Positions 35,369 to 37,731 of a stretch of 64,000 nt of DNA are shown piece by piece. The notes beneath the pieces are model-generated. The model searched no databases. It worked only from the letters and a program-made list of their open reading frames with translations, and was not told where the DNA came from. The stretch is from Saccharopolyspora erythraea NRRL 2338 (GTDB lineage: Bacteria; Actinomycetota; Actinomycetes; Mycobacteriales; Pseudonocardiaceae), in assembly GCF_000062885.1 (NCBI RefSeq), contig NC_009142.1:6995584-7059583 (forward strand). Direction: 5' to 3'. The position numbers and the translations under genes are program-made. Every line of letters starts with the position of its first letter. Within the stretch, counting starts at the first letter, position 1.

Positions 35369-36803
35369 TCACTTCTCGGTGAGCTTCTTGTACGCCTGCT
35401 CCAGGTCGTCCAGGCCACCGATGGACATGAACGCCTGCTCCGGGAAGTGGTCGAAGTCGCCCTTGCAGAGCTTGTCGAAGGCCTCGATGGTCTCCTTCAG
35501 CGGGACGAACGACCCCTCCTGGCCGGTGAACTGCTTGGCCACGAAGAAGTTCTGCGACAGGTAGCGCTCGATGCGACGCGCCCGCTGCACCGTCACCTTG
35601 TCCTCTTCGGACAGCTCGTCCATACCGAGGATGGCGATGATGTCCTGCAGTTCCTTGTACTTCTGCAGGATCCGCTTGACCTCCTGGGCCACCCGGTAGT
35701 GCTCCTCGCCGACGATGGCCGGGTCGAGGATGGTGGAGCTGGAGGCCAGCGGGTCCACCGCCGGGTAGATGCCCTTCTGGGAGATCGGACGGGAAAGCTC
35801 CGTCGTCGCGTCCAGGTGGGCGAAGGTGGTGGCCGGCGCCGGGTCGGTGTAGTCGTCGGCGGGCACGTAGATCGCCTGCATCGAGGTGATCGAACGACCG
35901 CGGGTCGAGGTGATCCGCTCCTGCAGCTCACCCATCTCGTCGGCCAGCGTCGGCTGGTAGCCCACCGCGGAGGGCATCCGGCCCAGCAGGGTCGAGACCT
36001 CCTGGCCGGCCTGGGTGAACCGGAAGATGTTGTCGATGAACAGCAGCACGTCCTGCTGCTGCACGTCGCGGAAGTACTCGGCCATCGTCAGCGCCGACAG
36101 CGCGACCCGCATACGGGTGCCCGGGGGCTCGTCCATCTGGCCGAAGACCAGCGCGGTGTCGGCGAGAACGCCGGACTCCGCCATCTCCACCCACAGGTCG
36201 TTGCCCTCACGGGTGCGCTCACCGACACCGGCGAACACCGAGGTACCACCGAAGTTCTTGGCGACCCGGCGGATCATCTCCTGGATGAGCACCGTCTTGC
36301 CGACACCGGCACCGCCGAACAGACCGATCTTGCCGCCCTGCACGTACGGGGTGAGCAGGTCGATCACCTTGATGCCGGTCTCCAGCATCTCGGTCTTGCC
36401 CTCGAGCTGGTCGAAGGACGGCGCCTTGCGGTGGATGGTCCAGCGCTCGGCGTCCGAGCCGTAGCCGGGCTCGTCGAGGCAGTGGCCCAGCGCGTTGAAC
36501 ACGTGTCCCTTGACCACGTCACCGACCGGCACCGAGATGCCCGCACCGGAGTCGGTGACCGCGACGCCGCGAACCAGACCCTGGGTGGGCTGCATGGAGA
36601 TCGTCCGGACCACGGAGTCACCCAGGTGCTGGGCGACCTCGAGCGTCAGGGTCTTGGCCATGCCCTCGGCGGTGATCTCCACGGTGAGGGCGTTGTAGAG
36701 GTCAGGCACCTGGTCCCGCGGGAACTCGACGTCCACGACCGGGCCGAGGACCCGGACGACGCGGCCGGTGCCAGTAGCAGTGCTAGTGGCAGTCTGCGGT
36801 CAT
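35369..36803 (-). CDS. atpD: ATP synthase F1 beta subunit; reading frame broken after the start codon
   Basis: The catalytic beta subunit of F1, about 475 residues. From 36736 the frame is intact: P-loop [38 protein letters not shown] and the normal C-terminus YKKLTEK. Before it the same frame reads [20 protein letters not shown], the usual beta N-terminus, but contains no ATG, GTG or TTG until the GTG at 36736 and meets a TGA at 36802. The well-placed ATG at 36803 (GGAAGTGAG four bases upstream, one base after the atpG stop) is in another frame and ends after six codons. One extra base around 36793-36798 explains this. Sequencing error is likely for an essential gene. Confidence 0.9.
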
Positions 36804-36804
36804 G

Positions 36805-37731
36805 TCACTCACTTCCTGCTGACGAGAGCGCCTCGACACCGCCGACGATCTCGCTGATTTCCTGGGTGATCTGGGCCTGGCGGGCCTGGTTGGCCTCACG
36901 GCTGAGCGTGCGGATGATCTCGTCCGCGTTGTCCGTCGCCGACTTCATGGCCGTGCGGCGGGCCGCGTGCTCCGACGCCGCCGCGTCCAGCAGCCCGGCG
37001 AACAGGCGGGTGTTGATGTACTTCGGCAGCAGAGCCTTGAAGAGGGTGTCCGCGTCCGGTTCGAAGTCGTAGACCGGGCGCAGGGTCTTCTGCGGCTCCT
37101 CCGAGTACTCCACCTCCAGCGGGGCGACCCGCTTGACCGACGGCTTCTGGGTGATCATGGAGACGAACTCGGTGTGCACCAGGTGCAGTTCATCCACACC
37201 CAGCGTACCGTCCGGGCCACCATCGTCCAGGTAGTCGTCGGCGCCCGCCAGGAAGGCCTTGACCAGGGTCTCGCCGATGTCGGCAGCGTCGCTGTAGTCG
37301 GGCCGGTCGGTGAACCCGGTCCAGCTCTTGGCGATCTCCCGCTGGCGGAAGCGGTAGTACGCCTCGCCCTTGCGCCCGACCACGTAGAGCACCGGGGTCT
37401 TGCCCTGCTCGCGGAGCAGCGTCTGCAGCTCCTCCGCCGCACGCAGCACGTTGGCGTTGTACCCGCCGCAGAAACCGCGGTCACTGGTGACCACCAGCAC
37501 GCCGGCCCGCTTGGGGTTCTCGCGCTCGGTCAGCAGCGGGTGGTCCAGCGTGCTGGCGTCGGCCAGCGCGGTCAGGACGTTGGTGATCTCGTCCGCGTAC
37601 GGACGGGAAGCCTCCACCCTGGCCTGCGCCTTCATGATGCGCGAGGTAGCGATGAGCTCCTGCGCCTTGGTGATCTTCCGGGTCGACTTGACCGACCGAA
37701 TCCGGTTCCGGAGTTCCCGAAGTTGAGCCAT
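36805..37731 (-). CDS. atpG: ATP synthase F1 gamma subunit
   Basis: The 308-residue rotor subunit. The N-terminal helix [20 protein letters not shown] and the C-terminal helix [20 protein letters not shown] form the coiled coil that turns inside alpha3beta3. The middle contains [18 protein letters not shown], the best conserved patch. A short acidic insertion ([19 protein letters not shown]) is typical of actinobacterial gamma subunits. It lies 11 bp after atpA and just before atpD. Confidence 0.96.

Follow-up and report, generated by a model that had tools for sequence, protein, structure and literature searches.

An extra base at the start of atpD in the Saccharopolyspora erythraea NRRL 2338 reference is most likely a deposited-sequence error

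The closest described counterpart of the locus examined here is actinobacterial atpD, which encodes the beta subunit of the F-type ATP synthase. The S. erythraea genome comprises 8.2 Mbp with 72% G+C (PMC4008361); the order of its atp operon is given as atpDGAHFEB (PMC3733707, PMC2667423), atpD is SACE_6280, a gene with measured expression (PMC2667423), and expression of the operon is reported to be moderately higher in strain E3 (PMC3733707). The window, which is the whole stretch of DNA that was analysed, covers 64,000 nucleotides of the NRRL 2338 genome (positions 6,995,584-7,059,583) and lies in a region with a G+C content of 71.4% over the surrounding 400 kb. Its atpD shares with actinobacterial F-type beta genes the position after atpG and a 475-codon frame, and its best matches among solved structures, 7y5a and 6foc, are mycobacterial-type beta chains. 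In contrast to actinobacterial atpD, the window gene as deposited has its start codon one base out of frame.

Some known +1 ribosomal frameshift sites, for example that of prfB, likewise have a stop that ends a short frame, with the downstream frame lying in +1. The window junction shares both of these features but, unlike prfB-type sites, has no re-pairing P-site codon, no Shine–Dalgarno-like stimulator and no conservation. It also resembles the indel errors described for the first-generation NRRL 2338 reference, in that an isolated base, absent in a close relative, breaks an otherwise intact conserved gene (PMC4891893). In that source, RNA-seq mapping from the same strain yielded 40 putative errors across the whole 8.2-Mbp reference (PMC4891893). 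Position 36794, the site studied here, is a candidate for an error of this kind. Elsewhere, one misannotated NRRL 2338 gene has been explained by a frame shift, with a missing base as the presumed cause (PMC4008361).

All features of the junction lie on the minus strand. In the list of open reading frames, atpG, encoding the gamma subunit, occupies 36805..37731 (308 amino acids) and ends with a TGA at 36807-36805, and a single base, 36804, separates this stop from the ATG at 36803-36801 (36801..36803) that would be expected to start atpD. Translation from this ATG yields the six-codon product MTADCH followed by a stop. The beta frame itself is open and intact over 35369..36796, with 475 codons and then a stop. 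Upstream, it contains a TGA at 36802-36800, and its first start-like codon is the GTG at 36736 (36734..36736); a scan of the frame from 36796 to about 36560 for ATG, GTG, TTG, CTG, ATT, ATC and ATA found nothing before that codon, which falls inside the motif GPVVDVEF and leaves an open frame of 455 amino acids. The anti-Shine–Dalgarno duplex before ATG 36803 has an energy of −8.6 kcal/mol, a strength equalled at about 5% of 2,000 random minus-strand positions; that before GTG 36736 has −2.4 kcal/mol, a strength matched or exceeded at 64% of random positions. These results bear out the sequence-only reading, which had described an ATG with a good ribosome site one base past the atpG stop, a frame closing at TAG after six codons, and a beta frame with a TGA and no start until the GTG; all of its coordinates were reproduced.

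The window's own genome (G000) was compared with its sister genome G001, the sole other genome in the genus search, to which it is 95.1% identical across 375 kb of aligned blocks. The two agree at 298 of 299 aligned bases across the atpG–atpD junction, and the alignment has a single gap, where G001 lacks base 36794; alignment, an isolated-gap scan and a recount all give this base as the extra one (36794..36794). The full beta protein of the sister genome begins at this same ATG, in a frame that runs through the whole subunit. The first 47 atpD codons are identical between the two genomes and, over the 475 codons, 26 differ, of which 23 are synonymous and 3 nonsynonymous. The window's atpD is otherwise intact, with a pattern of codon change indicative of purifying selection. 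The sequence-only reading had suspected one base too many within 36793-36798, an interval that contains 36794, and had named atpD in close relatives as its own test; the sister genome, with one base fewer between near-identical flanks, supports an assembly or sequencing error. The minus-strand segment 36789-36797 reads GCAGACTGC and, with the extra base, forms a perfect 4-base inverted repeat around a one-base centre. This repeat is possibly a site of band compression or of a templated slip, though it is short enough to have arisen by chance.

The comparison was extended to a family search of 200 genomes, including G000 and G001; all 200 gave some match, weak or partial in a few cases. Loci were read for the sister genome and for the 28 genomes that otherwise scored best, as were the best 80 loci of a second collection, making 109 loci in two sets (29 and 80) that may have species in common. 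Under a uniform test, each of these 109 best loci carries an in-frame ATG or GTG upstream of VVDVEF. In 107 of them an ATG lies within 40 codons; of the remaining two, the first has a GTG at 22 codons and the second an ATG at 53 codons, with GTGs closer than that. Among the loci read, the window's atpD alone is without an upstream in-frame start. Residues 2-470 of the 475-residue beta protein match the solved chains 7y5a and 6foc and, among the 58 solved chains listed, the best aligned stretches begin at query residues 2-11 in nearly all. The idea of a second beta gene elsewhere in the genome was dropped, since the own-genome search returned three matches, namely the window's atpD and two that are 24-25% identical, the first of which sits within the atpA frame and the second of which is probably Rho.

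These observations suggest that the deposited reference consensus contains a one-base error, a base wrongly inserted at 36794, and we hold this explanation to be highly likely. It is supported by the lack of base 36794 in the otherwise near-identical stretch of the sister genome, by the upstream in-frame start in all 109 of the best other loci read, by the intact remainder of atpD with its excess of synonymous differences, and by the absence of another beta gene from the own-genome search. The published accounts of putative errors in this reference and of measured atpD expression also favour it. It is by far the simplest account of the break, and base 36794 is very probably absent from the DNA of the living strain. 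In the living organism, atpD would then very probably begin at ATG 36803 and be translationally coupled to atpG, giving a normal beta subunit. No gene in the SACE_627x–629x range is mentioned in the main text of the study that resequenced Px (PMC3359211); a variant ahead of a gene whose annotated start is the GTG would be classed as intergenic and might well go unlisted there.

A genuine strain-specific insertion at 36794 is unlikely, and it could take several forms. The insertion might be real but recent, confined to one clone or library, with the strain in general use carrying the normal gene. Such an event could have arisen at the GCAGACTGC inverted repeat by a templated copying slip, although this pattern is weak and was recognized post hoc, and the own-genome search offers no second beta copy on which such a clone could have relied. 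Moreover, if ATP synthase is essential, a clone without beta would be expected to grow badly. We regard a clone mutation as very unlikely. The chance is very small that the base is both real and fixed in NRRL 2338 and that beta is produced from GTG 36736, lacking its first strand, or else through frameshifting with no known signal.

The first of these routes, a real insertion in the sequenced strain with beta started at GTG 36736 and missing the first 23 residues of the G001-type protein, is in our estimation highly improbable. It draws on the presence of base 36794 in the reference sequence and on the position of the GTG as the first start-like codon of a 455-amino-acid open frame. However, this codon is without a Shine–Dalgarno-like site, its duplex being no better than background; the residues that would be lost align with solved bacterial beta subunits; and the 109 best other loci read all start further upstream. 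We infer that a beta subunit truncated in this way would function poorly. Programmed +1 ribosomal frameshifting that links ATG 36803 to the beta frame is hardly credible. Codon re-pairing, the length of homopolymers and the lack of conservation all led to its rejection: a TAG does come right after six codons, but each of those codons would re-pair in the +1 frame at 0 or 1 of 3 positions, the 21 bases preceding the TAG hold no Shine–Dalgarno-like stimulator that could be found, homopolymer runs at the junction never exceed 2 bases, the short-frame arrangement is absent from G001 and from all 109 of the best other loci read, and a literature search on programmed or ribosomal frameshifting in atpD or the bacterial ATP synthase beta subunit found no papers. 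The sequence-only reading had left error, programmed frameshift and truncated initiation unranked; the first now has support, and the other two gain none.

Background rates of indels and frame errors were also determined for the two genomes. In 374,480 aligned bases, 29 isolated gaps with a length that is not a multiple of three were found in conserved contexts, with the extra bases lying in G000 in 16 cases and in G001 in 13, and such isolated indels mostly lie outside the predicted genes of both genomes. Real isolated indels between the two are thus not rare, and counts alone are no proof of error. The atpD indel stands out from this background by its location, a few bases from the beginning of the sole beta-subunit gene. 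When gaps were restricted to those with no mismatch within 60 bases on either side, all four one-base gaps had the extra base in G000 and both two-base gaps had it in G001, an asymmetry in numbers too small to carry much weight. Three further one-base extras in G000, at genome positions 6,869,898, 6,890,503 and 6,960,155, have 60-base flanks identical to those of G001 and are candidates for further reference errors.

Within 400 kb of each genome, 3 of the 297 G001 proteins that gave hits are split between frames in G000, and 2 of 295 are split in the reverse comparison; the G000 assembly is not visibly rich in frame errors. The atpD break was not flagged by this comparison because breaks in the first dozen codons are invisible to it. 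The three G001 genes that are split into two frames in G000 lie near genome positions 6,880,130, 6,941,520 and 6,943,105, in a region spanning about 6,879,825-6,943,380.

Were base 36794 real, an essential rotary enzyme would have an unusual start or a frameshift, which would surprise specialists. In the most likely case, that of an error, the issue concerns data quality, and a beta subunit annotated from the record would miss its first 23 residues. The extra base in atpD most probably reflects an incorrect deposited sequence and not new biology.
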